A DNA stretch of 64,000 nt. Source: Verrucomicrobiales bacterium (GTDB taxonomy: Bacteria; Verrucomicrobiota; Verrucomicrobiia; Limisphaerales; CAIMTB01). The notes under the pieces are model-generated. The model saw only the letters and a program-made list of their open reading frames with translations. It searched no databases and was not told the DNA's origin. Positions 7,764-47,781 of the stretch are shown here, piece by piece. Position 1 is the stretch's first letter; each line of letters opens with the position of its first letter. The DNA is taken from assembly GCA_016795425.1 (NCBI GenBank), contig JAEUHG010000221.1, positions 1-64,000 on the forward strand, read 5' to 3'. The position numbers and the translations under genes were made by a program.

Positions 7764-7786
7764 ATTTGTTGATTCATATACAAAAT
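7764..7786. promoter_or_regulatory. Possible MarR operator/promoter
   Basis: An AT-rich near-palindrome, ATTTGT-N10-ACAAAAT, lies immediately upstream of the MarR gene, the usual place for an autoregulatory MarR site. TTGTTG (7766-7771) and TGATAC (7788-7793), 16 bp apart, could serve as -35 and -10 boxes. That would put transcription start about 7 nt after TGATAC, close to the ATG at 7803. This is a visual prediction only. Confidence 0.4.
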
Positions 7787-7793
7787 GTGATAC

Positions 7794-8459
7794 ATGCAGG
7801 GCATGACTGAAAACGGCCCGGATAGCGCTCGGTACCAAGCGTTGATCCAACTCTTGCGAACCGCCGAAGACTTATGGAATGCCAGTCGAGTCTTCTTCGC
7901 CCGCTGGGACCTCAGTCCCAGCCAGTTTAATGTGCTTAACCTGCTCTATGGACAAATCGACGGCCTCTCGCAATCCGAGCTAAGTCGACTGTTGATTATG
8001 CATCGATCCAATGCCACTGGCTTGATCGATCGACTGGAGCGACGGCGGCTGGTCCAACGCACGGAAGATCCGCAGGACCGTAGAGCGTATCGAGTTTTGC
8101 TAACCCCCAACGGAATCGATCTGCTGCAGACCATTTATCCACACTATTTTAAGGCTGCCGATGCGGTTTGGGCGGGACTGCCGGATCAACGCGTGGAAGG
8201 CCTGCTCCGGGAGCTCCGGGATTTGGCCACCCAAGCAACCCAAGTCGCCGCCCGTCCCCCCACAGGAGTGCCAGATGCCCCGCAAGCCCCCAGGAGAACG
8301 CGGTCAACCCCTGCACCCCGTGAGCGAAACGGCCGTCGCTCCGTCAAGCCGGCCACAGCACCTGTCGGTGGCATCGACGGAGATGCACGTTATAAGCCGC
8401 AACTCGGTTCGGAACAAATCGATGACTCGATCGCCGGGCTGCGAACCGCAGACCTCTAG
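7794..8459 (+). CDS. MarR-family transcriptional regulator
   Basis: A winged-helix regulator. Residues about 40-110 contain LSPSQFNVLNLLYG, the recognition helix region LSQSELSRLLIMHRSNATGLIDRLERRRLV and the wing RTEDPQDRRAYRVLLTPNG with the conserved D-x-R-x-x-x motif. The protein is 221 aa, longer than the usual 140-170, because of a Pro/Arg-rich tail from about residue 155 that looks disordered. Two in-frame ATG codons (7794 and 7803) are possible starts. It precedes the Lnt-like/Aas-like/amidohydrolase operon by 165 bp on the same strand and may regulate it, probably in response to a small hydrophobic ligand; this is inferred from position only. Confidence 0.9.
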   Translation: MQGMTENGPDSARYQALIQLLRTAEDLWNASRVFFARWDLSPSQFNVLNLLYGQIDGLSQSELSRLLIMHRSNATGLIDRLERRRLVQRTEDPQDRRAYRVLLTPNGIDLLQTIYPHYFKAADAVWAGLPDQRVEGLLRELRDLATQATQVAARPPTGVPDAPQAPRRTRSTPAPRERNGRRSVKPATAPVGGIDGDARYKPQLGSEQIDDSIAGLRTADL

Positions 8460-8624: not shown

Positions 8625-10091
8625 ATGACGATGCAGTGGCGGCGCCCTCAGTCCATCCGTTACGCGGCCACGAAAGGGAGCGCGTCTGCCGACCTGAGTC
8701 CATGGACGCTCGTGCCGATCGCGATCGCCTCGGTCGGTGCTTTTCATGGTGCGTGGCGGCCTGGCATGTCCTGGCTAATGGCCCTCTTTCCCTTGCTGCT
8801 CCTCTCCGCCACCCGCCTCCGCACCGTTCGCCAGTCGTTCTACCTCGGACTTGGCCTTGGTCTCGCCATTGTGGCGCCTCAATTGCGGTTCTTTTGGTCA
8901 ATCTTCGGTGCGGCGGCGATCGTGTTGTGGCTGGTGGTGGCGATTTGGTACGCGGCGTTCGCGGCCACCGGACAGGCACTCCATCGACGACTCGCCGGGG
9001 TCTGGACTGTCCCCCTCATCCCGGCGCTGTGGATGGGCTTTGAATTCTTTCGAAGCGAACTCTACTACCTTCGCTTTGCTTGGATCACACCAGGTCATGC
9101 CCTTGCCCAGGCGGGGATTTCCCCAGTTTACCATTGGCTCGGCATGTATGGCGTGGGTGCGTTTCTCTTCATCGGCCCCTCTCTCTTCTGGTTCTCACGT
9201 CACGGAGGACGATGGCTGGGACTGGCGGTGACGCTCATCGGTGCGGCTGCATTGGGCGTCACCGAGACCCGTCCCCTGGCACCAGCGTCGGCGGCATCGC
9301 CCCATCGAATCGTTCAAGTCGCAGGTGCCCAAATTGAATCCATGCCGGAACACCACCTTGTGGCCGTCCTGGATCAATTGCTGGCCCGGTATCCGGCTAC
9401 CCAACTCTGCGTCCTTCCGGAATACACACTCGACGGTGCCCCCGGCGGTGACCTGATGAGCTGGTGCCGCGCTCATCGCCAGTACTTGGTGGTTGGCGGG
9501 AGGGAATTGTTGGAGAATGGCAGGTTCCGCAACACGGCCTGGGTCATTGATGCGTCGGGTGACATTGTCTTCCGGCAGGCCAAGTCCGTTCCAATCCAGT
9601 TTTTCAACGATGGCGAAGCCGCCTCGAATCAGGCGGTCTGGTCGTCCCCGTGGGGTGCGCTGGGAATCGCGATCTGTTACGACCTAAGTTACACGCGGGT
9701 CATGGATCGATTGGTGCGCCAAGGCGCGGAAGCGCTTCTCATCCCCACGATGGATTCGTTGTCGTGGGGAGCCCATCAGCACGCGCTTCACGCCCGGATC
9801 GCACCTATTCGAGCGGCCGAGTACGGAATACCCATTTGCCGAAGCGCCAGTTCGGGTGTTTCACAGGTTGTCGACCGCGAAGGATCCATCACGTCGAGCG
9901 CGCCCTTTTGCGAAGAGGTGGCCTTCTTCGCCGGATCCCTTCAGGTCGACGGGCCGGGCCGCCTGCCCATCGATCGCTGGCTGGCCCCGGCGGCCACGGT
10001 GATTACTGCGGGACTGATCGGTTGGCTCGTCTGGCCCCTCATAAGTCGACAAACTTGTCTTGGCACCGCCTCTCCGCGAATCCTGTCATGA
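8625..10091 (+). CDS. Apolipoprotein N-acyltransferase-like membrane protein (Lnt family)
   Basis: A 488-aa protein. The N-terminal 210 residues hold about six to seven membrane segments, including the Lnt-like block ALWMGFEFFRSELYYLRFAW...LGMYGVGAFLF. The C-terminal half is a nitrilase-fold domain with the catalytic triad E266 (LPEYTL), K320 (RQAKSVPI) and C351 (AICYDLSY), close to the spacing in E. coli Lnt. Lnt moves an acyl chain from phosphatidylethanolamine to the N-terminal Cys of lipoproteins at the periplasmic face of the inner membrane. The usual PFGEYVP after the Lys is replaced by PIQFFNDG, so the essential Glu of canonical Lnt is not at its expected place and the acceptor may differ. 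Its stop overlaps the next start by ATGA. Confidence 0.82.
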   Translation: MTMQWRRPQSIRYAATKGSASADLSPWTLVPIAIASVGAFHGAWRPGMSWLMALFPLLLLSATRLRTVRQSFYLGLGLGLAIVAPQLRFFWSIFGAAAIVLWLVVAIWYAAFAATGQALHRRLAGVWTVPLIPALWMGFEFFRSELYYLRFAWITPGHALAQAGISPVYHWLGMYGVGAFLFIGPSLFWFSRHGGRWLGLAVTLIGAAALGVTETRPLAPASAASPHRIVQVAGAQIESMPEHHLVAVLDQLLARYPATQLCVLPEYTLDGAPGGDLMSWCRAHRQYLVVGGRELLENGRFRNTAWVIDASGDIVFRQAKSVPIQFFNDGEAASNQAVWSSPWGALGIAICYDLSYTRVMDRLVRQGAEALLIPTMDSLSWGAHQHALHARIAPIRAAEYGIPICRSASSGVSQVVDREGSITSSAPFCEEVAFFAGSLQVDGPGRLPIDRWLAPAATVITAGLIGWLVWPLISRQTCLGTASPRILS

Positions 10092-12280
10092 TCAAACGCG
10101 TTCTCCTGCTCCTCGCACGGATCTTCTTCCGCCACCGAGCCAACAACACGGCGGCCCTCAAGACTCCGGGACCCGTTTTGCTGCTCTCCAACCATGCCTC
10201 ATGGCTCGACTGGTTGTTCCTTGGAGTGCATCTCGATGACGACTGGAGATTCGTCACGTCTATCGAAACCGCCCAGACCAGTTGGTTGCACCGGTTCATC
10301 ATGGTGAATCGCCGGACGTTTCCGATTGAGGTGGCATCACCCTACGCCGTCAAACGCATGGCTGAATTCCTCGAGAAAGGTGGCCGGTTGGTCCTGTTTC
10401 CCGAGGGACGCTTATCGAGGACCGGTGCCCTGATGAAGCTCTTCGACGGGACGGGATTCCTGATCTTCAAGACACGGGCCAAGGTAATCACCGCCCATCT
10501 TCGAGGCGCTCAGCGTGTCCCATTCTCTCCGCACCCCGGGTGGCGGCGCCTCTTCACTCCTGTCACCGCCCATTTCAGCAATGCCTTGGATGCACCGCAT
10601 CCCGGCAATGTCAGCACCAGCGCCGCCCGCACCATGCTGACCGCCTGGTTGAGAGACACCATGGTCCGGCAGCACTTCGACGTGGAATCCGAGTTCGGTC
10701 CGCGCCACCTGTTGGATGCCATCGTGGAGACCGCCTGTCGGCGCCCTGGCTTCGAAGTGCTCCGCGACACCACGCGGCAACGACTCACCTATCGGCGGCT
10801 GCTGGTTGGAACCCGCCTGCTGGCTGAACAATGGCGACAGCTTCTTCTGGCCGAGACGCCTCGTGTCGGGGTGCTGCTTCCGAACGTGAACGCCACCCCG
10901 GTGACCATCCTGAGTCTGTGGGCATCCGGCCACATTCCGGCACTGCTGAATTATTCGACCGGAACACCGGTGATGCTCAAATGCTGCGAACTGGCAGGCC
11001 TCCGCCAGATCATCACCTCGCGCGCGTTCCTGCAGCGCGCGAAGATCGATCCGTCGCCGTTTGCCCAGGCTGGAATCGAGCTGGTCTATCTCGATGACGT
11101 CCGACAACGCATTCCCTCCTTCCGCCGTCTCGTTACTCTGCTGGCTTCGATCCTTGACCGGTCGCTGGGGTTGTCAGGTTCGGCATTTCGATCCGGCACC
11201 GACGAGACCGCGGTCATCCTGTTTACCAGCGGATCCGAAGGACTGCCGAAGGGGGTCGAACTCAGCCACGGCAACCTCCTCGCCAACCTGCGCCAGCTAC
11301 TGGCGGTGCTGGACATCGTTGACACCGACCGTTTCTTCAACGCGCTTCCGCTCTTCCACAGTTTTGGGGTCATGGCCGGAATCGTTGCCCCATTGGTTCG
11401 CGGCATCTCCTGCTTCCTTTATCCTTCGCCGCTGCACTACCGAATCGTTCCAACCCTGGTCTACGACCTCAATTGCACCGTGATGTTCGGCACGCCGACC
11501 TTTCTCAACGGCTACGCGCGCAAAGCGCACCCCTACGACTTTCGCACGGTACGACTTCTGGTCGCCGGTGCTGAAAAGCTTCAAGAGTCCACGTTCCTTA
11601 CCTATGCGCGCAAATTCGGCGTTCGGATTCTCGAAGGATACGGCGCCACGGAATGCAGTCCTGTCGTATGCATCAATTCGCCATTGGAACCCCGCGCCGG
11701 TTCCGTCGGCCGTTTCGTGCCCGGACTGGAGTGGCGCCTGGAGCCCATGGATGGCGTTCCCGTAGGCGGCCGGCTTCTCGTGCGGGGGCCCAACGTGATG
11801 CGAGGTTACCTCAATGCCGACGCCAACGCGAAATTCCAGGCACTCGGCGGTTGGTATGACACCGGAGACATCGTGAATGTCGATGCAGACGGATTCGCGT
11901 TCATTCTCGGTCGACTGAAGCGATTCGCGAAGATCAGTGGCGAAATGGTCAGCCTCACTGCCGTCGAGGACGCATTGGCCGGGGCATTTCCGCAGTTCGG
12001 ATTGCGGTGTCAGGTGGCGGTGGTTGCAGTGCCCGACGACGAAAAGGGCGAACGCCTGATTGCGGCTTCCAATGAGTCCAAGCTCACTTTGGAAGACCTT
12101 CGTACGGTGATCCGTGGAAAGGGATTCAGCAATCTATGCGTACCGCGTGAGCTGCGCTTCGTGAAGGAGATACCCAAGCTGGGCACGGGAAAAATCAATC
12201 ATCGTGAATTGGCATCCCTCGTCGGCAGGACAGAACCTCCGACCACCACCAGCTCACCCCAACCCATTTCGATTGGATGA
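10088..12280 (+). CDS. aas: Bifunctional acyltransferase / acyl-activating enzyme (Aas-like)
   Basis: A 730-aa fusion. Residues 1-190 are a PlsC-type glycerophospholipid acyltransferase with H36-x4-D41 (NHASWLD) and FPEGRLSRTG. Residues about 220-715 are an AMP-forming acyl-CoA/acyl-ACP synthetase, with the P-loop ILFTSGSEGLPKGVELSH at about 375-395, the adenylation block EGYGATECSP, YDTGD and a C-terminal GTGKINHREL containing the catalytic Lys. This is the architecture of 2-acylglycerophosphoethanolamine acyltransferase/acyl-ACP synthetase, which re-acylates lysophosphatidylethanolamine. The start at 10088 overlaps the stop of the Lnt-like gene (ATGA), and its own stop overlaps the amidohydrolase start in the same way, so the three are translationally coupled. 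The placement fits recycling of the lysolipid left by N-acylation. Confidence 0.9.
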   Translation: MIKRVLLLLARIFFRHRANNTAALKTPGPVLLLSNHASWLDWLFLGVHLDDDWRFVTSIETAQTSWLHRFIMVNRRTFPIEVASPYAVKRMAEFLEKGGRLVLFPEGRLSRTGALMKLFDGTGFLIFKTRAKVITAHLRGAQRVPFSPHPGWRRLFTPVTAHFSNALDAPHPGNVSTSAARTMLTAWLRDTMVRQHFDVESEFGPRHLLDAIVETACRRPGFEVLRDTTRQRLTYRRLLVGTRLLAEQWRQLLLAETPRVGVLLPNVNATPVTILSLWASGHIPALLNYSTGTPVMLKCCELAGLRQIITSRAFLQRAKIDPSPFAQAGIELVYLDDVRQRIPSFRRLVTLLASILDRSLGLSGSAFRSGTDETAVILFTSGSEGLPKGVELSHGNLLANLRQLLAVLDIVDTDRFFNALPLFHSFGVMAGIVAPLVRGISCFLYPSPLHYRIVPTLVYDLNCTVMFGTPTFLNGYARKAHPYDFRTVRLLVAGAEKLQESTFLTYARKFGVRILEGYGATECSPVVCINSPLEPRAGSVGRFVPGLEWRLEPMDGVPVGGRLLVRGPNVMRGYLNADANAKFQALGGWYDTGDIVNVDADGFAFILGRLKRFAKISGEMVSLTAVEDALAGAFPQFGLRCQVAVVAVPDDEKGERLIAASNESKLTLEDLRTVIRGKGFSNLCVPRELRFVKEIPKLGTGKINHRELASLVGRTEPPTTTSSPQPISIG

Positions 12281-13413
12281 GACGGTCTTTGCCAACGTTA
12301 GCCAGACGCTTCGCCATCCTGGCGACGCTTTGCGCCGGAATCCTTTTGCTCGCTCGCCAGGTTTTTTTTCACGGCCCGTATCAGCCGGTGACCCAGCTGC
12401 CCGGACATGGCATCGTCGACCTGCATTGCCACACGGCCGGCATCGGCGCCGGTGGAAGCGGGTGTTTTGTCTCCGCACGAATGCGCGCCAATGTTCGTTA
12501 CCGCATTTACCTGGAGTCCTTCGGGGTGACAGAGGAGGAGATATCCCGCGAAGGCGACGCACTGGTGATCCGTAAACTCTCGGAGAGTGTCGCAAGAAGC
12601 GAACACGTTCGAGCGGCCGTCGTTCTCGCACTGGATGGCGTGGTGGACAGCACCGGGAGCCTCGACACGAACCGCACCGAAGTCTACGTGCCTACGGAGT
12701 TCGTTGCCCGCGAGGTCTCCCGCACGACCAATCTTCTGTTGGGCGCGTCGATTCATCCCCGACGCACCGATGCTCTCGAGCGGCTCGACCGGGCGGCGGC
12801 CGAGGGAGCGGTACTGGTGAAGTGGATCCCCTCCATCATGGACATTGATCCCGCAGATCCGGCGTATGTTCCCTTCTACCGTCGATTGGTCCACCACCGG
12901 CTTCCGCTCCTGTCGCATACCGGGAATGAGCGTTCCTTCACCTCGGCGCAGGATGCCTTGGCGGATCCGGAACGCCTGCGTCTGCCACTGGAACACGGTG
13001 TGACGATTATCGCCGCGCATGCCGGCGCCGCCGGCAACAATGGTGGAGAAGCAGATCTCCTGCGGCTGCGCCGATTGATGCAACGCTATCCCAATCTCTA
13101 CGCAGACATCTCGGCGCTCACGCAGGTCAATCGGCTCGGTGCGTTGCGGGAGACGCTCGAAGCGCCCGAATGCAGGGGCCGCCTGGTTTACGGATCGGAC
13201 TTTCCGCTCATCAACACCGCCCTCGTTTCGCCGTGGTATTACCCGCTTAACCTAACGGAACAGCAACGGCGCACCTTGGCCGCGGTCGGTTCGCCCTGGG
13301 ATCGCGATGTGCTGCTGAAACAGGCGTTGGGCGTTCCCGCCGAGATTTTTATCCGCGGCGAAACCCTTCTGCCGTCCGTCGCCAGAAGGAACTCCCGAGC
13401 CGACCATCCCTGA
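12277..13413 (+). CDS. Membrane-anchored amidohydrolase-superfamily (TIM-barrel) hydrolase
   Basis: A 378-aa protein with an N-terminal membrane anchor (about residues 10-28, RRFAILATLCAGILLLARQV) and a metal-dependent TIM-barrel domain. Metal-binding features are H50-x-H52 (VDLHCHTAG), a Lys in VLVKWIPS, His in LLSHTGN, His in IIAAHAGA and Asp in YGSDFPL, matching the Amidohydro_2 type. The start ATG at 12277 overlaps the TGA of the Aas-like gene. The anchor places the barrel outside or against the inner membrane near the two acyl-transfer enzymes, so an amide or ester lipid substrate is conceivable, but nothing in the sequence proves it. Confidence 0.85.
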   Translation: MRRSLPTLARRFAILATLCAGILLLARQVFFHGPYQPVTQLPGHGIVDLHCHTAGIGAGGSGCFVSARMRANVRYRIYLESFGVTEEEISREGDALVIRKLSESVARSEHVRAAVVLALDGVVDSTGSLDTNRTEVYVPTEFVAREVSRTTNLLLGASIHPRRTDALERLDRAAAEGAVLVKWIPSIMDIDPADPAYVPFYRRLVHHRLPLLSHTGNERSFTSAQDALADPERLRLPLEHGVTIIAAHAGAAGNNGGEADLLRLRRLMQRYPNLYADISALTQVNRLGALRETLEAPECRGRLVYGSDFPLINTALVSPWYYPLNLTEQQRRTLAAVGSPWDRDVLLKQALGVPAEIFIRGETLLPSVARRNSRADHP

Positions 13414-26000: not shown

Positions 26001-28268
26001 ATAGGTCGGGTCGGGAGCATCGCCAAAGTCCAGCGTCGATTGCGGGGTCGAGACGCGCAACGGATGGTCCTCGACTTCACCGTCTGCGGAAGGACCGACG
26101 AACCCTTCGATCTTCGTGCGGCTGAATCGGAATCGGGTGAAGGTGGGTCCGGTTTTCGAGGTGGCAGGCGCGACGAAGGACAGCGTGTTGGTTCCGCCAA
26201 CCACAGTGATATTTTCAAAGATGGCTTCCCCGGCGTCCGCCCAATCGCCGTCCGCGTTGAAGTCAATCCAGGCCGACAAGAACCCCTCGGTCGAAGCGCG
26301 GACGAGAACCGGGTTGCTCTGTCCAGCAACAGCCTGCGAAGGGAATTCCACGCCATCCTCGTCATCCACTGCGGCCGGGACCGCGTCATCACCGGTGGCA
26401 CCCGCATTGGGCTGACCATCGGTCTCCGGATCCACGACGGCACCCAGGAACACCCCCTGGACGATGCGATGCCGAGCGCCGTTATTCTTTAGCGTCGTCG
26501 GATAGGTCGGATCCGGGGCGTCTCCAAAATCAAAGCTTTCCTGGGGTGCCTCGATGCGGACGACATGATCCTCCACTTCGCCATCCACCGCTGCGCCAAT
26601 GAATCCTTCGATCTTGGTGCGACTGAAGCGAAAGCGTGAGAAGGTCGATCCAGCCTTGGTAGCGCTCGGCACGAGGAAGGTGAGCGTGTTGGTCCCGCCC
26701 ACGACACCGGTGTTCTCGAAGATCGCTTCACCCGCATCCGCCCAGTCGCCATCCGCATTGAAGTCGATCCAGGCCGAAAGGAATCCCTGGGTAGAAGCGC
26801 GAACCGCGACGGTGGCAGATTGGCCGACGATCAGAGCCGACGGGAACACGACTCCATCCTCGTCGTCGGCGTTGGTGGGATTGAGATCATCCCCGGTGGC
26901 CCCTGCGTTGGGTTGCCCATCCTGTTCGGCATCGATGCGCTGGCCAAGGAACACATCGGGATTCACCGGATGCCGCGCACCGTTGTTCTTCAGAGTCGTG
27001 GGATAAGTCGGATCTGGGGCGTCACCGAAGTCCAAACCGCCGCCGGATTTCACCTCGATCTGGTAGTCCTCCACCTCACCTGCTTCGTTGCTGGGTCCGA
27101 ACGCGTCGACGCCACCTTCTTGGCTGAGACGGAATCGGGCGAAGGTGGTACCAGCTTTGGCGCCGGAGGGTACTGCGAAGGTAAAAGTGTTGTTGCCGGA
27201 CAGAAGGGATCCATCAACGAGATGTTCCGCGGGTTCATCGAACTTCCCGTTGGCGTCGAAATCGAACCAGCCGTCGATGCGCCCGCCAAAGCCCGTGGTT
27301 GTAACCAGGTTGATGACGACGGTCGCAGTCTGGCCGGGAGTGAATCCCGATGGAAATGAAACGCCGTCCTCGTCCGCGCCATCGCCTGTAGCCGTGGTGT
27401 TGGGTTGGCCGTTGGCTTCCGCGTCGATGGCTGTTCCCAGACTGAATCCCTTTTGGATCCGTTGGGCGGCGCCGCTGTTGGATCTGAGCGTGGGATACGG
27501 TTGGTCCGGAGCATCGCCGAAGTCGTAAGGATTGACCGTCACCGTGAAATCGTCGCTGGAGGTTGCCTGACCGTCGCTGACAGTGACCTTGATGATGGCT
27601 ACTCCGCTTTGTCCGGCGGTGGGAGTGAGTGCGATGGTGCGATCGGCCCCGGAACCACTGATCGCGATTGCCGTGGAACTGATCAGCGCGGAGTTGTCCG
27701 ATGACACCCGCAAGGTCAGTTGACCCGCACTGGTCTCGGCGTCGTCGATACGGAATGGAATCGGACCTGAGGTTCCCTCCTGGGGGATGACCTGGTTGGG
27801 AATATCGGAAATCCGAGGAGCGGTATTCACCGTCACTGCGGTGACCGTCAGCACGAAAGTCTCGGTGTCGGATCGTTGTCCATCGGTTGCCGACACCGTA
27901 ATGGTGGTCTGCCCGGAGAGGGTCGGCGTGGGGGTCACGGTGAGTTGCCAACCGCCGGCGCGGACCGGCGCGATCGCCAATCCATTGGCGGTCACCAATC
28001 GTGTATCGGAACTCGTGGCGCTCACTCGAATACCGGATTGGGGGGTGTCGGTGCCCGTGACGCTAAACGGTATCGGACCGGTATTGGTGCCCTGCGCGAC
28101 GGTGCGATCGGCGATGTCGGAGATCGCGAACCGTTGGATCACCTGGCCGTTGGCAGTGAAGGCTTGGAGAAAAAGGGCGAAGCCGAGTGCGGCGAGGCAC
28201 TGCCTGGGCCATCCCAAGACGGTTGCCCGGCACCGGCGGCCCGGTGGCATGGGATTGGGTGAATTCAT
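23058..28268 (-). CDS. Large exported GEVED / IgGFc-binding-domain protein
   Basis: 1736 aa from the ATG at 28268, chosen because GGAGGG lies five bases upstream and because the start yields a signal peptide (CLAALGFALFLQAFTANGQ). Residues about 46-243 are two cadherin-like repeats (ISDIADRTVAQGTNTGPIPF, ISDIPNQVIPQEGTSGPIPF). Five GEVED domains follow (about 246-1080), each opening with DFGDAPD/E and closing with GEVEDY/H. Residues about 1080-1500 match an IgGFc-binding domain (GVDFWLTFPGNYAPD, DTKVVIVPSEV, LSDKPIAAFGGHQVAN). The tail has HYR-like Cys-rich repeats and ends in GNRGFFRIRED. These are adhesion-type surface modules. The start overlaps the stop of the 6401-aa gene by ATGA, so the two are translated in sequence. 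Confidence 0.9.
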   Translation of the reverse strand: MNSPNPMPPGRRCRATVLGWPRQCLAALGFALFLQAFTANGQVIQRFAISDIADRTVAQGTNTGPIPFSVTGTDTPQSGIRVSATSSDTRLVTANGLAIAPVRAGGWQLTVTPTPTLSGQTTITVSATDGQRSDTETFVLTVTAVTVNTAPRISDIPNQVIPQEGTSGPIPFRIDDAETSAGQLTLRVSSDNSALISSTAIAISGSGADRTIALTPTAGQSGVAIIKVTVSDGQATSSDDFTVTVNPYDFGDAPDQPYPTLRSNSGAAQRIQKGFSLGTAIDAEANGQPNTTATGDGADEDGVSFPSGFTPGQTATVVINLVTTTGFGGRIDGWFDFDANGKFDEPAEHLVDGSLLSGNNTFTFAVPSGAKAGTTFARFRLSQEGGVDAFGPSNEAGEVEDYQIEVKSGGGLDFGDAPDPTYPTTLKNNGARHPVNPDVFLGQRIDAEQDGQPNAGATGDDLNPTNADDEDGVVFPSALIVGQSATVAVRASTQGFLSAWIDFNADGDWADAGEAIFENTGVVGGTNTLTFLVPSATKAGSTFSRFRFSRTKIEGFIGAAVDGEVEDHVVRIEAPQESFDFGDAPDPTYPTTLKNNGARHRIVQGVFLGAVVDPETDGQPNAGATGDDAVPAAVDDEDGVEFPSQAVAGQSNPVLVRASTEGFLSAWIDFNADGDWADAGEAIFENITVVGGTNTLSFVAPATSKTGPTFTRFRFSRTKIEGFVGPSADGEVEDHPLRVSTPQSTLDFGDAPDPTYPTTLKNNGARHRINPDVFLGVRVDAEPDGQPNAGASGDDGSPTNGLDDEDGVLFDLPLAGGQNGKVQVTASTQGRLWAWVDFNADGDWVDAGERIFNGLVIVGGVNNLTFPVPAEVKAGPSFSRFRFTRTTIESYTGEAADGEVEDHPVRLSAPEVNYDFGDAPEETTSYPTTLARNGARHQLEQGFRLGEAEDVESDGQPNPAATGDDINPAAGPDDEDGVRFLTAITAGSVARIEVTTTARGRLDAWVDFNANGSWNDAGEKIFNAEQLGAGLNTLSFNVPASIRGGVSFARFRFSQQGGLAPEGFGGAGEVEDYPVRIDRTAPCELGCTGVDFWLTFPGNYAPDPANPVKPQLCIIGPPGTQVSIRIAALTYNNAVVIPAAGSINVNLPKDADLGDSNDLIEDKGVHVTATQPVTVHALSQVKYTSDGFTALSTEVLGNQYIVLGYGNVHSGVPELNGTQFALVATEDDTKVVIVPSEVTGTHDSGFPYLINLKAGQTYQLRNTNDAPRDLTGTLILSDKPIAAFGGHQVANVRSQNSFFADYLVEQMLPVNRWGTEFFARPLAIPGAPGTRSNYTIRVLASQNNTRVWINGVLITTLNLGEYVDRTLAGAAQIITDRPAQMAQYAASSDVDGVVNADPFMVLGQQRNLFNRDLRFCTASGGFLTHHINVIVPTAAVGTVQLDGAAFPGGFAAIGASGYSHGTAQVAAGVHRVTAAQPAGVIVYGWNEYESYAWPACQFFGDTTPPELTCPQEQITLVAGPFQSPAGVTPCVAAVPELRSQVKATDNCGFASTAAPVVTQDPPAGTLVRVGTHDITLSVADAQGNVGTCVVKLVVTDPNPEGPVTLVCPTNLVVACASSDGAIVNYEAIALKGCTPVPLQCNPPPGSLFPVGTTTVTCVLEDEDNSLSCTFNVTVRCGGRRIEVAITGDLPTLSWGDGGRLETAESLSGPWTVVEDAKPPYRIQARGNRGFFRIRED
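25025..27535. repeat. Five ~500-bp in-gene repeats encoding GEVED domains
   Basis: The DFGDAPD coding block recurs near 27512, 27023, 26523, 26023 and 25523, an almost constant 490-500 bp spacing. The inner three units share PTYPTTLKNNGARH and DGQPNAGATGDD/ASGDD nearly exactly; the first and fifth are more diverged. This indicates recent tandem duplication within the gene. Confidence 0.85.
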
Positions 28269-31200
28269 GGCGTCCCTCCAATGGGCTTGCCCGCAATGGG
28301 ACGAGCCACGGCTAGAAGCACTTCCTGATTCAAATTCTCTCCGCCCGAGTCCCATCCCGCCGAGATGCTCCGGACTGGATGATGATCGGCACCCAAGGGT
28401 TTGGGCGCCCCTCCCGCCGATGGAAGCCGTTCAGGCAACGCCGGTGCAAGGACGGCGCCGGAAGCCGCGTTCAGGATCTCGATGGTTTCGAATCCATCGA
28501 TCGCGACCGCCTGGCGGCCCGTGCTGGAAATGGCGGTGTCCGTTTGAGTCGTCAGCAGTCCTTGGGCGTCGTAAATGAGAACATCGGTCCCGGTCCCGGC
28601 TCCCCCAAAGAGTCCATAGCCAACAGTTGCGGATGGCGCCACGAAGAAGGCGTCGGTGGCCGCGGTACCCAGAATTACCTCCAGGCTACCGGAAGCGTTG
28701 GAAACCTGGTTTTCGCCGGAGAGCACCACGATGGCCCCATCGATGGTCACGCTAACTCCGACACTCACGTTCTGAAGATCGACGGTGTCGTTACCAAAGC
28801 CGCCGGTCTCCACAATCGAGTCCCTGCCCCAGTCATCCTCGAATCGGTAAAGATCGTCCCCTTGTCCACCTCGAAGCAGGTCGTTCGCCGCACCTCCGAC
28901 CAACACATCGCCCTGAAGGCCGCCAAACAATCGATCGATGCCCCCCAGGCCCGTGAGAACCACTGGACCGAGACTAAAGGACGAGGCATCGATCACGTTT
29001 CCGCCGTCGCCGCCGGTGAGCTTCGCTTGCTGGATAGAGCTCATCAGATCGGTTTCGGCACCAATGCCGAGCTGGTTATTCAGCAGGAGGAAATCCGCGT
29101 CGCGTGTTTCAACGACCGTATTGATTCCACCCCCGCCTTGAAGGGAATCGCTGCCCAGTCCGCCGGAGAGCTCGTCATCACCAGAACCTCCCAGCAACGA
29201 ATCGGCGCCCGCATTCCCCGCAAGGATGACGGGGCCAAGAGTAAAGGCGGAGGCGTCGAGTACGTTGGATGACGCTCCACCCACCAAGGTCGCTGTCTCA
29301 ATCCCTAGGAGCGTGTCGGTCTCCAATCCAATCTTAAGCGCTGCATTGGATAGGACCATGTCCGCGTCGCGCTCGACGGAAACGCGGTCGAGGGCGGAGG
29401 TTCCGCCGCGAAGGGTGTCATTCCCCAGGCCACCATCCAAAATGACGGAGCCCAGTGTAAACGCCGAGGCGTCGAGCACATTCACGCCCGCGCCGCCCGT
29501 CAACCTGGCCTGCTCCAGACCCACCAGACTGTCGGTTTCAGCACCGATCGTCAGGTTCGCGTCATTCAGCGAGAAATTCGCATCGCGCTGTTCCACGACG
29601 GTATCAGTGCCGGTTCCGCCCTGAAGGTTATCCGCACCTGGGCCACCCGTGATTTCATTGTCGAGCGAGTTGCCGATCAAGGTGTCGGCCTGGGATCCAC
29701 CCTTCACCGCTTCGATCGAACTTCCGCTGGTCAGCGCGAGATTGGTCGTCGCGGTGATTTCCTGGGGCGTGGTCAGCGAGAGGTCGAAGATCACGGCGAT
29801 TGTCGTTGTCGGCGAGAAATCAAGGGTGTCCCAGCCCCCGGCCGCTCCATCCGCCTCCTCGATCAGGTCCCCACCCAACGACCCATCGGCATCCACGAGG
29901 TACACATCATCGCCGGGTCCGCCCGCGAGGCGGTTATTGCGGCTGTTGCCGGCAAGTCGATCCCCGAGGCTGCCGCCGATGACATTCTCGATACGTTCGC
30001 CGGCACCAAGGATGAGCGTCAGATTGGCGTTGATTGCCTGGGCAGCCGCGGCACCGAGATCAACCGTCACGCTCTGAGTGGTGGTGGCCGAGAAGTCGAG
30101 GGTGTCCAAGCCGCCATTCAGAAGTTCGACCAAGGTGTCCGTGCCGAGCGCGGTGTCGGCGTCGAAGACATAGGTGTCGTCGCCAGTGCCGCCATTCGCG
30201 GTGTCGTTGCCCGCCTTGCCTTCGAGCAGGTCATCGCCTCCCAATCCGGAAAGCACATCGGCACCGACCCCGCCCACGAGATGATTATCGAGGGCGTTGC
30301 CCGTCAGCGACCCACCGCCCGAGCCACCCACAATATTCTCCACGGCTGCGGCCGAACTCAGATCCAAAGTCAGGTTGGCGTTCACCAACTGGGGTGCGGC
30401 GTCGCCAAGATCAACGCCGACGGCGGCCGAAGTGTCGGACAGGTCAATGGTATCGATGCCTCCGTCGAGATTGGCGAGTTCGAGAAGGACATCGGTTCCC
30501 AACGGACTATCGGCATCAAAGGCGTACGTATCATCACCCCAACCGCCCGCCAAAGTGTCGTTCCCTGCCCGCCCTTCCAGGCGATTGTCGAGGGTGCTAC
30601 CGATCAGGATATCCGCCAAGGCACCGCCAATCACGTTCTCAATCGAATGACAGGTGATGAGGCGCAGATCGAGGTTGGCATTGACCGTCTGCACCAAGCC
30701 CATCCCCAGATTAACCTCCACGGGAAGGGTTGTGGTCAGCGCGAACGACAGGGTGTCGGTGCCGCCAGTGCCCACGCCTTCCCAAAGGGTGTCGAGACCC
30801 AGCGGGGAATCCGCATCGAAGAAGTACACGTCGTCGCCGCCCTGACCCTCGAGCCAATCATTACCCGCGCCACCCAGGATGAGATCATTGCCCTCGCGGC
30901 CTTCAATCCGGTTGTTCTTGTCGCTGCCGGCCAACACATCCGCGAGAGCGCCGCCAATCAGGTTTTCGACGTTGCCAACAACCGCAAAGCTAAGCCGATG
31001 CAGGACCGCATTGGTGACGGCGTTTCGGGCGGCGTCCTGGACACCTGCGATGCCGAGTCCGAGACTGACACGAGCTCCCGTTGTGGCCGAATAATCAAGG
31101 GTATCAATGCCGGAGGTATCCTGAATGAGGTCCGTGCCAAGATCCGAATCCGCGTCGAAGACGTAGGTGTCGCGGGCGGCATTGCCGGAGAGGGTATCGT

Positions 31201-34200
31201 CGCCGCCGCCACCGATGAGCGAATCGCGGCCGGATCCACCCGTCAGCGTATCGTTTCCATCCAACCCGATGAGGGTGGCGGATCCGCTAAAGGCAGAGGC
31301 ATTCAACGTATTGTTCGAGGCGCCGCCTGTCAGAGTGGCGGCTTCAATGCCAATCAGGTCATCGGTCTCACCAAGGCCAATGGTCAAATTGGCATCGTTC
31401 AACACCATGCTGGCGACGTCCCGGGTTTCGATGATCCGATCGATCCAGGTGCGCGGGATCGGCAAGGTCACGTTCGCACCGCCATCCAGGGTGTCGTCAC
31501 CCAAACCACCGGTGAGCATGTCGTTTCCTTTGCCGCCCTCGATCACATTGTCGAGAGCGTTGCCGACCAGGGTGTCGTCATTGTCACCGCCACGGAGGTT
31601 CTCGATCACATCCACCGCGGAAAGCACGAGGGTAAGATTGGCGTTGACCGTTTGCAGCGTCGTCAGGCCGAGGTGGACGGTGACGCCAACCGTATTTGTC
31701 GGGGAAAAATCAATGCGGTCGAAGCCGCCGGTGGCGGTCTCGGTGATCGTATCCGCACCCAGGTCCTCGTCGGCATCGAAGAGGTAAGTGTCATTGCCGT
31801 CACGTCCCTGCAAAGCATCGTCGCCCGCACCACCTATGAGGACATCGAGCTGGGCAGTGCCGATGAGCGTGTCGTTCCCGCCTGCTCCATCCAAAAGCAC
31901 AATTCCGCCGTAGGCCGAGGCGTCGAGAGTGTTGTTGCCATCGCCACCTTTGAGTGACGCGAATTCGATGGTGCCGATGAAGGTGTCAATCTCGGCTCCT
32001 ATGGTCAGGGAACCGTTGGTTAGGACAAAATTGGCATCCGCTTCTTCGGTGACCAGGTCCGTTCCCAGCGAGCCGTTGATGGTGTCACTACCGGTGCCGC
32101 CAGTGAGGAAGTTGCTGCCACTGCCACCGACGATGGTGTCATTACCACCACGGCCATCGAGGCGCACGACCCCGGAGAAGGAGGCAGCATTCAGCGTGTT
32201 GGGATTGTCATCGCCGACCAGGCTGACGTTCTCGAAATCAGAGAGGAGGTCGGTTTCAGTGCCGTTAAATATCAACGTTACCGGTGTACCGTCGAACAAC
32301 TCGAACCCGCCCCCGCGTTCCTCCTTCAGGGTGTCGTTGCTGGAGTCGCCCGTCGGGCCGCCGTCGAGCGTATCATTCCCTTCGCGTCCCCAGATCACAT
32401 TGTCCCGATTGTTTCCGGTCAGGGTATCCCCCAGAGCGCCGCCATACAGATCCTCAATGCCTTCGCCGTCCGAGAGCGTGAGGCTGAGATTGACATTGAC
32501 GGTTTGGGAGACGTTGAGGCTGAGGTCGAGGGCGATGGGCTGGGTCGAGGTTCCCAGGAAATCGATCAGGTCGGTGTCCTCTTCCGTCGCTGAAGTGGCG
32601 TTGTCGAAGAGCTCGTCGTGGCCCAGGGGCGCATCGGCGTCGAACAAATAGGTGTCACTGCCGCGCCCGCCTCGCAATTCATCGTCACCCCGACCGCCGG
32701 TCAGGATATCATCACCCGCACCGCCGATCAGGATGTTGTCGAGATCGTTTCCGGTCAGCGTGTCGTCCTGATCCCCGCCGGTGACATTCTCGATGACGTT
32801 CCCGGCCGGAAGCTGGATCTGCAGGGTCGTGGTGACCTGTTGAACCGCGACACTCGTTAGGTCGAGAGTGATGGCCCGGCTGCTGGTGGTGGAGAGATCG
32901 AAGGTATCGTTGCCGCCGAACGGCGATGCAACCTCCGCGATGGTGTCGAGACCGAGGTTTTTGTCCCCGTCGAATAGGTAGGTGTCATTTTCGCTGCCGC
33001 CATTCAAAGCGTCATCATCGGCACCGCCTTCGATGAGATCGTTGCCACCTTCGCCGTAAACCTCGTCTTCGCCATTCCCACCGTAGATTTCGTCGTTGCC
33101 CATTCCACCCAGCAACACGGCCTTGAAACTGGCGTCGAAGTAGCCGAAGTCGCCCAGGATCACGTCGTTCCCGTCCTGTCCGTAAATCACGTCATCGTCC
33201 GGACACGGGTTGTCGAAGATGAGCAGAATGGCGGATGCGAGGTTGCCCTTCACTTCACCACCTGTCGGATTCTTAAGGATCAGCTGGACCGTTTCCGGAG
33301 ACTCCGAGACGGCGTCCTCGATGACAAAGACAAGGAAGGACCTGGCCGTCTCATCCACACCGAAGCTGACCGTGCCCTTGGCCGACGTGTAATCGGCAGG
33401 AGTTACGGCGGTCCCATCGAGGGTGTAATAGACCCCGACGGGTTCGAAACTGTTGGGAGTCCGGTTGATGGTGATCGTCGCGAACCCATCGGTCTCGCGC
33501 ACGCTGTAGACCAGATGACTAAACTGGATGCTCCAAGGCCCTGGCGAACCACCGGGAACCGATTGCAGTCCGGCGTCGATGTCACCCACCGTGGCACCGG
33601 CCGCCACGGAAATGGCGTCGGTCAGGCCGGTCGTGGCACTCACGTCGCTGTTGGTGGCGGCCGCGCCCACCCCTTTGGTGGCGAACTTGTTTCCGGACGG
33701 CGGAAGGACCTGCACGTAGTATTTGCAGGCGGCCAGCTTCTCGAATTTGTAGTTTCCGCTGGCGTCGGTGTAGGTGATGGCAATCAGCGTCCAGAACTCG
33801 TCGTACAGATTGACCTGCACATCCTTGACGCCGAATTCGGCGCCTTCCTGATTGTTGGCGTCCACGTCGCGCCACACGCGGCCCTGCAACGTACCGGGAT
33901 CAGGAATCGACGCCGGATCCACATACTTGCGGTTGCCCTGTTCGGCGGTCTGCTGCTTGAGCGTCGCGTCATAGGGATTGCCGTCGCAGGCGCACCCCGG
34001 CCCGAGCCAGTGCCCGCCGATCAGCCAGTCATCGCCGGAACCGCCATCCAGGAAGTCGCTGCCCGGCCCTCCGTAGGCGGTGTCATTGAAGAAGGCGAGG
34101 CCATTGCCGATGGAGGCTTCAGGTCTAGCGGGGGTGGCTTTGACTTGGTAGCCGATGTTCTTGAAGGCGAGCACCGAAGCCGTGACCGTGGCGTCCTGCG

Positions 34201-37200
34201 GGTTGTTGCCTGTGGTATTGATGCTATCGACCGGAGTGGTGGTCTCATCCACGGTGACCGTCACGGAACCCAGGATCACACTCGCGCTGAAGGTGCCGTC
34301 CCCGAGGGTCGTCGTTGTCTGATCGCCGTTGAAGTCGGTGATGGTCAGGTCCACACCGCCGAGGCCGTATTCACTGCCTTCGTCGAAGAACCCGTTGCCA
34401 TTGAGGTCGGCGAACACCAGACCTGTGGCAGTGGCCAGGTCGTCATCGTAAATGTAGCCGTAGTCCTCGTAGTCGATGATTTCGACGTTCTGAGGATTGC
34501 TGATCTGCCCGCGAACGTACTCCAGCACTTCGGGAATGGCATCGTTCACCAGGGTTACAGAGACGGATTGAATCTCCGTTCCATTGACGGTGCCGAAGAA
34601 CAACGTGCCCGAGTTGGCCACGTAGTCAGGCCCAGCTTGGGCGTCGCCGTCCGCGGAGTTCCAATCGAGCGTCACGGGAACCAATGAGACGCCCTCGACC
34701 ACCACATCGAACACCAGCTTGAATCCCGGATCGTTCTCCTCCGCGCCGTCGGGCCAATCGGGTCCAATCAGATTGACCGCAAAGATGAAGGCCGTGGGTA
34801 ACGGATCGGCTTCCTGGATGGTCAGGACCGCAGTGTCGTTGAGTCCACGCACGGGGCCGCCCGTGGGATTGAGCAGGTGCAGGACGACCGTCTCGTCCGT
34901 TTCGTACCCGTCGCCGCCGACGGTGGGGATGGTGAAGGTCTTCGTGGATTCACCGGCCGCGAAGCTGACCACACCGCGCGGACCGCTGGTGCCGTTCTCC
35001 CAAATGCCAGTGTAATCAAGAATGGGGGTCGCTGTTCCACCCAGGCTCCAATACACCGCCACCGGTTCGGAACTGCCTTCGGCGCGAACCAGCGTGATGG
35101 TTGCGGTGTCGCCCTCCTCCACGGAGTAGGTGGTGCTGCTGAACTCCACATACCACGGTCCCGGGTCGCCGGATTCATCGTTTCTGATGATCACCCGCGC
35201 GTGATTGAGTTCGTCGTCGGTGGTGTTGATCTGCCCGTTGATGGCCTTGATCAGGTTGACGTAGAAGTCCTCGTTCGTTTCCCCGCGTGTGTCGCCAATG
35301 ACCTCGACCGTCACGGTCTTGTCGGTCTCGCCCTGACGGAACACCACCGAGTCGTTGGCAAAGAGGAAGTCCGGATATTCGCCCTCGGGGGCGGCGCTCA
35401 CCGCCGTACCTCGAGAGGTGTTCCAATCGACGGTCACATCTCGTCCGCTCACGGCGGTAAGATGCAGGTTGAAGGAGACCTTGGTGTTGCCCGCGTGTCC
35501 CTCATTCACCGACCGCACGACATCCGGAGCGAAGGGAAGATCGGCGATGGACCACTCCACGAACGGCGTGGCGTCGTCGTCAGCAATGACTGCATGGGCC
35601 AGCCCATCCCCGATCACGGCCAGATCGGTGGCGGTCGCCGGATTGAGGGTCACGATCATGCTGAACTGCTCGTCGTACTCATCCAGCGCGTCGGCCAGGA
35701 CCGGGATGACCACCGACTTCTCAGTTTCGCCCGGATTGAAGGTCAGGGTGCCGAGGATCGTTTCGAAGGCCGCGCTGTAATCCGCACCCGCGCGGGCGGC
35801 ATCGAACACCAGCACGCCGCTCGCATCGACGATCTGGCGGGTCTGGTAGTCGACTTGAATCGTCCGCGAGCTGGGTCGGGAAAGACTGATGACGAAGGTC
35901 ATTCCGGTCGCTTCAGGAATCGGATCCAGCACGGTCACCTGTTCGCCGTCCTCGATGCTGACGCTGGGTGCGTCATCGTCGTCGATAATTGTGCCGGTGC
36001 CCGTGTCGTTGGCGGCATCGATTGTGGCGTTGTACGGCTGGGACAGCAGCACCTCGAATTGTTCGTCGATCTCGTCGATGTCGTCCCCGAGTATGGGAAT
36101 CTCAACCGTCTTCACGGTTTCGCCCGGTTCGAAGACGAGCGTCCAGGAGGTGCTGGAATAATCGACAATGTTCAGCGCCGTATCGGGATTGGTGTGATAA
36201 CACACTGTCACCACCTTGTCGGAGACGCTCGACAGGGTGACCGTGAAGACGAGGTTCGTGATGCCGGTATCGCCCTCCTCGATGGAAGGATCATCGATCA
36301 CCAGAATTGGCGTCGTTCCCTGAACCCCGGCGTCCCAGGTGTCGTCCGTCTGACCTGCCGTCACCGAGAAGGTGGTGGTGCGTCCCGTCGCCCCGTTGGC
36401 ATCGCTGTCGATCTCGTCGTCCCCGGCGTCTTGGATCACGAAGGCCAGGCCCGTCGGAAGGGTAAACTTCACATAATAGTCTCCGGCCTGGAGCCCGGTG
36501 AAGAGATAGGCGCCCGTGGGATCGGTGGTGGTCGAAGCGATGAGGGTGTTCGCGCTGTCGAAGAGTTCGACCTTGATACCAGGCACGCCCATCTCGCCGT
36601 CATCGAACAGGTTGTTCCGGTTGCCGTTGGCATCGAGGGCATCGAACCAGACCCGGCTGCCGATGTTCGCTCCCGGGAAGGTCGTTGCCGCTGCGCTGTG
36701 GGCGTCGTCGCCGAATACGACGTCGTTGCCGGCGCCACCATCCACAAAATCCTCCTCATCGGTGTCACCGCCGGGTGTCGCCACGCCGCTGACCAGCAGG
36801 GTGCCGCCGAAGATCGCGTCGTCGCCATCCGCGCCGAAGATGATGTCGGCGCCCGGCCCGCCAGCGAGCAGATCATCACCACTGCCATCGACGCCGGTGA
36901 CCTGCAGCGCGCTGACAATCGTGCCCAGGTCTCCGAGAATCACATCGTTGCCCGAGCCGCCGTCGATGGTGTCGTCGTCATTTCCACCGATCAGTTTGTC
37001 ATCGCCTCGCCCACCGGTGAGGGTGTCATCGCCATCGCCGCCCTCGATCTGGTCGTTGCCATCGTAGCCATCCAAATTGTCCGCGCCGTCGCCACCGAGA
37101 AGGGTGTCGTTGTCGAGGTCGCCCTCGATGGTGTCATTGCCGGCGCCGCCTTCGAGCAGGTCGTCACCCGCATACCCGAGAAGCGTATCCGCGCCGTCGT

Positions 37201-40200
37201 CGCCATAGAGTTTGTCGCCCAGATCCCAGCCGGTGAGAATGTCATCGCCGGCGCCGCCATGGAACTCATCGACCACGCCGGCGAAATCCCCACTGGATTC
37301 CTCAGCCGTGATCACATCGTCGCCATCATCGCCGTCGTACCGCCCGGCGCCGCGTCCGGCGTAGATGGTGTCGTTGCCGGAACCGCCGTGAATCCCGCGT
37401 CCGGCGGCAGTATCCACCGGAGCCAGGACGCCGCGAAGGTCCAGGGTATCGTTGCCCTTCCCGGCCACCGCCCAGATCTTCTTCACGCCGAAGTAGGTCT
37501 GCTTGATCCCGTTGAAGCTGACTTCGACGGTCTCACCTTCAGCCGTCGAGGGATCACCATCGATATGGACGACGGTGAACTTCTCATCGCCATCCGCGGT
37601 ATCACCCTCTTCCCGTTCATCGGCGTAGTCGCCCATGTTGAGGCGCAGACTTCCGGTCGCGTCCGCAACCTCGAGTTCACTGCCGGTGACATTCACGTAA
37701 TTCGCCAGGACCGGCACCGGGCAAACGATGTCGAACTCGAGAATGGTGATCTCGGCGAATCGGAAGGTTTCATCGATCTGGAAGAAGAACAGATCGATGA
37801 TCAGATAAGCCTCGAGGAAGGCCTTGAACTCGCCGTGGATGTCGAAGATGCAGCGGATATCCTGCTTGGCGTTGGCGATGATTTCGCTGACCCGCACTCG
37901 CCCGTCGTCATCCGGATCGTTGAGATTGAAATCGATCTGCGCCTCCAGACCACCCCGAACCCCGGCTTCGGCGATGACAATATCGATGGAACCTGCGGCC
38001 CATAGCGAGCCCGTGAGGGTGAGCTCGGGAACATCGACGCCGTCGTCATCGACATCCTTGATGTAAAACCCGTCGAAGATATCGAGGATGTTCTTGTCGT
38101 CGCTGCTCAAGTACTTCTGGATGCCATAGGTGTCGAAGCCGATGGTCAGGTCGGCATAGGCGCCGATGCTGCCTCCGAACTTCACGTAGAGCGGCCCGAT
38201 GATCGGGATGGCCAATTCGAAGGAGGCTTCGAAATCGAGCGTGGGCAGGTGGTATTCGACCAGGCTCACCGGTTGCCCGAGGAACAGTTTGAAGACCTCC
38301 GCCACGCTCAGGAACGGGAAGGTGATTCCGATCTCCTCGAGTTTTCCGAGAAATGACTTGGCCGGTTCGTCCTGAACGTCGGTCAACGCGGCAACCGGCC
38401 CATCGGTGTCGCCCGCCTTGCGATCCACTCGCCCGAACTTGTCGACGTCCAATTCGAACCCGCCGATCGGCAGCAGAATGTTGCCGTCGTCCGAAACGGA
38501 TGTGTCGTTCGCCAACTCCACGATCACCACGATGACATCGATGAACTTGCGGGTCTCAGGGGTGATCATCCCCCAAAGTTCGGCGAGATCGAGCAGGGTG
38601 TACGGCTCGCCCGCGATGTCGGAGATAATCGGAATGGGCGTCGTCAGCACCGTCACCACCGGTCCCAACGGCTCGGTGATTACCCTCAGCTTGTCGAGAA
38701 TCGGACGTATGAAGTCCGACACGAAGGATCCGATATCGAGCGACAGGTTGTGGAAGCCAAAGCTGAAGTCACCGTCCAGGCTGCCGCCAGGCGTCCAGTT
38801 CCAGTCGAGGTCGAACTCAGCCACCAGCCTGGGGAACTGGGCGCTGCCACCGAAACTGACCGCGATCTCCAGGTTGACCTCGGCGGTCGCACCGATCTCC
38901 GCGTCAACGAGCTTCGAGACATTGAGTCCGGGATTCGTGAGGTCGCCGAAGGTGAGCCGGTTGCCACTGCCGATCGGGTCCTTGAGATCGACGGTGAAGT
39001 ATCCGACGAACGACGATGGATTCCGCGGGTTCCCCTTCAGGTCCTTGCCGTCCGAATCATCCGCCACGTCCAATTGCAGGAAGAGCAACTCGCCCTTGGC
39101 ATTGAGTCCCGGGATGGTGACGCGGAATTCGAGCCGGAATTCCTCGCTGTCCGAAGTGTCGAAATAGAAACCATCGCTGGTGTTGAGGCCAAACTTCAGC
39201 TTGAAGTCGAACCCGGCCTCGATCTTCACGTTGCCATCCACTTCGAGACCGAAGCCGGGGATGCCAATGTCGAAATCGATCGGGTCGCCAGAGGTGTCAA
39301 CCAGCGCGATCGCCTTTTTGAGCCGGAGATTGAAGGTGATGCCGTTCTCGTCGCAAATGATGTCTACCTCGTCGGCGGTGGTGAGAGGCGTCCCGTCTGG
39401 TTTCACCAGCAGGTCCAGGCCACCCGCCCCCAGGGAATCGAAGATGGCCTCTTTGGCCAATTGGATGGGATCGCCGACCGACGCCAAAGTGCTTCGAAGT
39501 TCAGCAAGCAAGCCCGAACGGAAGTCACCGATGAAGTCGGCCGCCTTGCCGAGTTGACCACCGACCAGTGGCAGATTCCGTCCAAAGGTGCTTCCCAGCG
39601 CGTCCTGCACCGTGCCCAGCAATGCGTCGAGTCCATCGAGCAGGATCGGCGAGTTGGTGATGAGATCGCACAGATTGATGTTGTCGAAGAGGCTCGAGAG
39701 ATCCGGCGCTCTCAACACAACCGCGCTGCCGTCGCCTCCCAGGAGCTGCTGGAGCGGTCCGGATTGGAACACCAGCCAGTTGTCGGGCTCGTTGCCGGCG
39801 TCCGGACCGTCGCTCGTGCTGCCGATGGGCAAGCTATCGAGTGCGAACAGCGGCAGATTCGCGCTGGCCGCCGCGGTCAGCCCGATGTCGATGCTGTTGC
39901 TGTCAAAGAAGGTCTCGTCGCTGCGGAAGTAGTGGCGGCCGTCTCCGTTGTTGTCTTTGAAGCCGACCACGAACTCGGCGCTGTCGGTGGTCGTTGCGGG
40001 ATTGCCATCGCCATCGATGGTCACGGTCCCGTTCTTGACCGAGACATTGAGCGCACCGATTCCTGCCTTAAAGTTCAGCGCGGTGCCGCGAACCGCGGCG
40101 CTGAGGGTGAGGCCGGTGGAATCGTAGAGGAACGGAATGAAATTGCACTTGCTGCTGACATCGAGTCCGAAGTCGAGTGCCAGGGCGGCTTCCGCCGACA

Positions 40201-47470: not shown

Positions 47471-47781
47471 CCGACAACGTGCCTCCCATGCGGGCTGGCA
47501 CTCGATGGGTGGATCGCACGCGAAAGCCATTCACCATCGCGCACAATGGACGAGTGCCAGATGCAGAACTCCTCGATCTCTGCAACGACCTTTAGGGAAA
47601 CAGTAGCCGCGTTAAACAACTGATCGCCAAAGGAGTCAAGCCAGGTCTTCAAAAAGATGAAGAACCAGTGCGCGCTGCCGGGAATCCAATCGGATCGCGT
47701 AGGTCGTTCGCCTAGCCCGCCGTCGGACGCACCCTCAGAAGTCGCCTGATAAACCAACTGAAAACCTCCCAGAAGATGCAA
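47471..47781. other. Upstream region of the giant gene
   Basis: About 310 bp ahead of the start of the 6401-aa gene. It should hold its leader and promoter, but I see no clear boxes and no gene of its own. The tandem repeat block begins at its far edge. Confidence 0.4.
47482..47487 (-). promoter_or_regulatory. Possible ribosome binding site of the giant gene
   Basis: GGGAGG on the minus strand, 11 nt before ATG at 47470. The spacing is slightly long, but no comparable site precedes the alternative start at 47530. Confidence 0.5.

Follow-up and report, generated by a model that had tools for sequence, protein, structure and literature searches.

A divergent Lnt-like membrane nitrilase encoded next to an Aas-like enzyme in a MarR-associated operon of Verrucomicrobiota

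Results

Organization of the locus

The window analyzed here is a 64,000-nucleotide stretch of contig JAEUHG010000221.1 from a Verrucomicrobiales bacterium. It carries three genes on the same strand, at 8625-10091, 10088-12280, and 12277-13413, encoding an Lnt-like protein (LntL), an Aas-like protein, and an amidohydrolase. An earlier note on this DNA had described these genes as overlapping by ATGA, which we found at both junctions, and had placed a MarR regulator just upstream. This regulator is indeed present and ends at 8459, leaving a gap of 165 bp before LntL, whose ATG at 8625 is closely preceded by GAGGAGG. A consensus scan of the window found no sigma-70-type promoter. The features, with their Pfam domains, are as follows:

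7765-7784, no strand assigned: candidate MarR operator, a degenerate palindrome, TTTGTTGATTCATATACAAA, weak in the window (7 mismatches versus ATTGTTGACATATCAACAAT)
7794-8459, + strand: MarR-family regulator, 221 aa (MarR_2, E = 1.5e-14), with an orthologue upstream in 24 of 41 LntL loci
8625 (ATG)-10091 (TGA), + strand: LntL, Lnt-like membrane nitrilase, 488 aa (CN_hydrolase, E = 1e-13; triad E266-K320-C351)
10088 (ATG)-12280 (TGA), + strand: Aas-like acyltransferase/acyl-ACP synthetase, 730 aa (PlsC and AMP-binding domains)
12277 (ATG)-13413 (TGA), + strand: membrane-anchored amidohydrolase, 378 aa, an optional member (Amidohydro_2, E = 4e-14)

The Aas-like protein combines a PlsC-type acyltransferase domain (E = 1e-15) with an AMP-binding domain (E = 2e-59) and the C-terminal domain of the latter, and it is homologous to E. 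coli Aas over the whole length (40% identity, 724 columns). Its score against the NCBIfam equivalog PRK08043, 566.5 bits, falls below a cut-off of 886 that is set for close orthologues. Elsewhere in the window, an uninterrupted reading frame on the minus strand (28265-47530), 6421 codons long, would encode a giant protein.

LntL is a second, divergent Lnt-like enzyme

The AlphaFold (AF2) model of LntL (pLDDT 89.6) predicts a nitrilase domain and 8 transmembrane helices, as counted from the helices of the model. Its 24 best PDB structure matches are all Lnt, with TM-scores of 0.67-0.71. Upon alignment of 34 LntL sequences, we found that the Glu-Lys-Cys triad, equivalent to E267, K335, and C387 of E. 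coli Lnt, was invariant in all of them. However, the Lnt-essential residues E343 and W237 and the lid arm (345-365) are gaps in all 34, whereas canonical Lnt proteins from this order retain them, and E389 is replaced by Asp in 33 of the 34. E. coli Lnt requires E343, its fourth catalytic residue, for thioester formation (PMC5500890) and W237 for transfer to the lipoprotein; W237 together with the lid serves this transfer and shields the intermediate (PMC6971011). With E343 missing, even the first half-reaction of LntL, formation of the thioester, is not assured. At the site of the missing residues, LntL has an invariant K-x-x-P-x-Q-F-x-x-D-G stretch, and the active-site entrance is therefore rebuilt. 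The suggestion of the earlier note that the product is an N-acylated lipid is unsupported; the missing residues are essential to lipoprotein N-acylation in E. coli Lnt.

LntL scored 67.1 bits against TIGR00546, below the cut-off of 132.9, and has no match to PF20154. In a tree of nitrilase domains, canonical Lnt is separated with a support of 1.0 from a group made up of LntL, its distant relatives, and a soluble nitrilase encoded in the window's genome. Of 245 genomes sampled from the same order, 98 have LntL orthologues, mostly at 40-55% identity. Canonical Lnt was found in 231 of the 245, and the 14 genomes without it all lie outside the 98 with LntL. Since every LntL genome thus has a canonical Lnt, LntL is an additional enzyme. 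The check for a second, canonical Lnt that the earlier note had called for was positive in the window's own genome as well, and we rejected LntL as the sole Lnt of this genome. In two relatives (G025, contig C6; G150, contig C203), about 8-10 kb separates canonical Lnt from LntL. As a second, divergent enzyme, LntL ought not to be annotated as an apolipoprotein N-acyltransferase.

Conservation of the operon in relatives

We mapped 41 LntL loci by tblastn, namely the window and 40 fetched loci; the latter were picked among the better-scoring ones, and the fractions given here may not hold order-wide. Locus counts were taken from this map because simple ORF calling, which gave antisense ORFs in GC-rich relatives, hid some genes. 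An Aas homologue is present in 33 of the 41 loci and lies directly downstream of LntL in 30; in 3 loci of one family, a divergent Aas is found upstream of LntL instead. In most cases fewer than 50 bp separate the LntL stop from the Aas start, the distance being -4 in several relatives, and the MarR/LntL/Aas order repeats across many families of the order. Because both this order and the 4-base LntL-Aas overlap recur, the arrangement exceeds what chance would give.

Other members vary. An MFS gene occurs in 16 of the 41 loci (LplT-like in 10, Spinster/SPNS-like in 5, and Atg22-like in 1), alpha/beta hydrolases follow in 16, and the amidohydrolase is found in 4. The conserved core is MarR, a lysolipid-type MFS transporter in some loci, LntL, and the Aas-like gene, and not the Lnt-like/Aas-like/amidohydrolase trio that had been put forward as the gene order; the LntL-Aas coupling of that proposal holds, the amidohydrolase is optional, and the trio was rejected as a conserved unit.

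LntL was found with no Aas nearby in 8 of the 41 mapped loci and also in L148-L152. Among 288 genomes that belong to the phylum but lie outside the order, 10 gave an LntL-like match, five of them close (L148-L152) and five distant (L153-L157), and no Aas was found near any of these genes. Conversely, L162 and L163 have MarR, LplT, Aas, and the amidohydrolase without LntL. One family is laid out differently (L043, L044, and L068): the divergent Aas homologue (~30% identical) lies 5' of LntL and a second PlsC-type acyltransferase 3' of it, and two of the three loci have an SPNS-like transporter. A TatD-like metal hydrolase, at least 85% identical across loci, lies a few genes 3' of the operon in six genomes (L038, L039, L046, L056, L057, and L058).

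The amidohydrolase gene lies beside Aas

The predicted structure of the amidohydrolase has an N-terminal helix (residues 5-30) and a TIM-barrel fold resembling 2-pyrone-4,6-dicarboxylate hydrolases and ACMSD, to which the helix is an addition. Residues H50, H52, H214, H248, and D308 are invariant in 26 homologues, and a PDB sequence search with the protein returned only a chance match. Beyond the 41 mapped loci, the amidohydrolase also accompanies LntL in L165-L167 and, by coordinates only, in G192, G174, and G085. Close homologues adjoin Aas with no LntL beside them as well: the mapped examples are L158 (same genus), L162, and L163, and coordinates place G069 (same genus), G137, G077, G048, and G026 with these; in G137, LntL is on a different contig from the Aas-amidohydrolase pair. 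The suggestion that this enzyme acts on an N-acyl product is unsupported because the gene is optional and sits beside Aas even where LntL is absent. If the amidohydrolase belongs to a pathway here, it belongs on the Aas side.

Two lysolipid-type transporters share one slot

In relatives, the LplT-like or SPNS-like gene lies between MarR and LntL. The LplT-like protein is 32% identical to E. coli LplT and matches the NCBIfam LplT model (E = 1e-76) with 258.7 bits, under the cut-off of 297. The two SPNS-like proteins that we tested gave much better matches to human SPNS1/SPNS2 and bacterial HnSpns than to other MFS chains, and the other three loci were assigned by tblastn match to these two. LplT transports lysophospholipids for Aas (PMC11416262), and SPNS1 is a lysophospholipid transporter (PMC13192786 and references therein). 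The LplT-like transporter inserted between MarR and LntL therefore points to lysophospholipid recycling, and the strongest clue to the pathway is that two different lysolipid-type transporters alternate in one slot. The window operon itself carries no transporter gene. We found no LplT homologue in the genome, although at 94% completeness this does not prove absence, and the best SPNS-like match there is 30% identical and on a different contig.

A candidate MarR operator

Most relatives have a 20-bp palindrome, ATTGTTGACATATCAACAAT, immediately 5' of MarR, among them some that have Aas without LntL. Allowing up to 5 mismatches, we counted 31 sites in 1.09 Mb versus 3 after a single shuffle in two-base blocks. 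Among 15 whole genomes, the palindrome was present in 14, at a single place in 11 of those, and a reversed control pattern had no sites. The off-operon sites, in G040, G045, and twice in G022, have no operon relatives nearby. The G040 site (L183, 1501-1518) is a near-perfect copy about 25 bp 5' of a methyltransferase-like ORF. This conserved candidate operator suggests a switch dedicated to the operon; the window site is degenerate, and control of the window's copy by MarR is therefore less certain.

Discussion

The E. coli cycle starts with Lnt, which makes 2-acyl-GPE from PE; this lysolipid is imported by LplT and then reacylated by Aas (PMC4666226). Here we favor a related scheme, at somewhat less than even confidence, in which LntL makes a lysophospholipid by acyl transfer to another acceptor and its operon neighbors import and reacylate it. 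LntL would perform the lysolipid-producing step, drawing its acyl chain from a phospholipid donor and passing it to an acceptor other than that of Lnt. The leftover lysophospholipid would be brought inside, a step for which relatives have the operon's LplT-like or SPNS-like transporter, and the Aas-like enzyme would reacylate it. In favor of this scheme, LntL immediately precedes Aas in 30 of the 41 loci, often overlapping it, lysolipid-type transporters fill the slot before LntL in relatives, and the Lnt fold keeps its triad. A different acceptor is likely because canonical Lnt accompanies LntL in all 98 genomes and because E343, W237, and the lid are absent. Counting against the scheme are the loss of E343, the window operon, which lacks a transporter, the MarR-LplT-Aas loci that lack LntL (L162 and L163), and the LntL genes with no Aas nearby.

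As the chief alternative, LntL would hydrolyze rather than transfer. It could be an amidase or a phospholipid/lysolipid deacylase in which water resolves the thioester and the synthetase half of Aas re-uses the fatty acid. This would agree with the absence of W237 and the lid, both of which Lnt uses for transfer and shielding (PMC6971011), with the prevalence of hydrolases among nitrilase-superfamily relatives, with the grouping of a soluble nitrilase of this genome with LntL and not Lnt, and with the full AMP-binding synthetase domain of the Aas-like protein. However, the LntL model shows the complete 8-helix fold of Lnt, which it matches at TM-scores near 0.7, and the operon holds lysolipid transporters rather than fatty-acid uptake genes. 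We consider hydrolysis unlikely.

It is more doubtful still that the genes are merely co-regulated in an inducible membrane-repair response, for instance to phospholipases, with LntL biochemically unconnected to Aas. MarR control through an operator that usually occupies a single place in a genome would agree with this, as would the MarR-LplT-Aas-amidohydrolase loci without LntL, and in Pseudomonas, Aas acts against lipase effectors as a stress response, Aas/LplT being protective against phospholipases (PMC12663445); against it, LntL lies directly before Aas, often overlapping it, in many families. A specialized lipoprotein N-acyltransferase for a subset of lipoproteins, alongside canonical Lnt, would fit the fold, the triad, and the role of Lnt as a known lysolipid source for LplT-Aas (PMC4666226), but is similarly improbable given the missing residues and lid in all aligned LntL, the low TIGR00546 score, and a canonical Lnt that is always present.

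A bolder form of the transfer scheme, which we regard as rather unlikely, is that LntL founds a separate membrane nitrilase family that acylates a non-lipoprotein acceptor (an amino lipid, polyamine, peptide, or glycan) from phospholipid. This would amount to a new type of bacterial envelope modification that has its lysophospholipid recycling built in, and in which bacterial Spinster proteins replace LplT as lysophospholipid importers.

If acyl transfer by LntL is correct, the operon genetically links the production and repair of lysophospholipid, which are known in E. coli from separate loci. LntL makes it testable what the Lnt fold does without the residues of lipoprotein acylation, and the alternation of LplT-like and Spinster-like genes in one slot offers a direct bacterial test of Spinster cargo. 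We found no publication on an Lnt-Aas operon or an LntL-like paralogue; most subscription papers fell outside the search, and novelty is not proven.

Compared with known systems, the operon resembles the E. coli 2-acyl-GPE cycle in having an Lnt-fold enzyme, an Aas-like enzyme, and, in relatives, an LplT-like transporter. In E. coli, lnt lies apart from aas-lplT, whereas here the genes form one operon, putatively MarR-controlled, the Lnt-like enzyme is a paralogue that has diverged and coexists with canonical Lnt, and the window lacks the transporter. With the apolipoprotein N-acyltransferase Lnt, LntL shares the predicted 8 transmembrane helices and nitrilase domain and the Glu-Lys-Cys triad, but it has the K-x-x-P-x-Q-F-x-x-D-G stretch in place of E343, W237, and the lid arm, and Asp at E389. 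Lastly, the MFS gene at five relatives' LntL loci belongs by sequence match with the Spinster transporters (SPNS1/SPNS2/HnSpns); these five are bacterial and, although absent from the window operon, lie in a lysolipid-repair operon.
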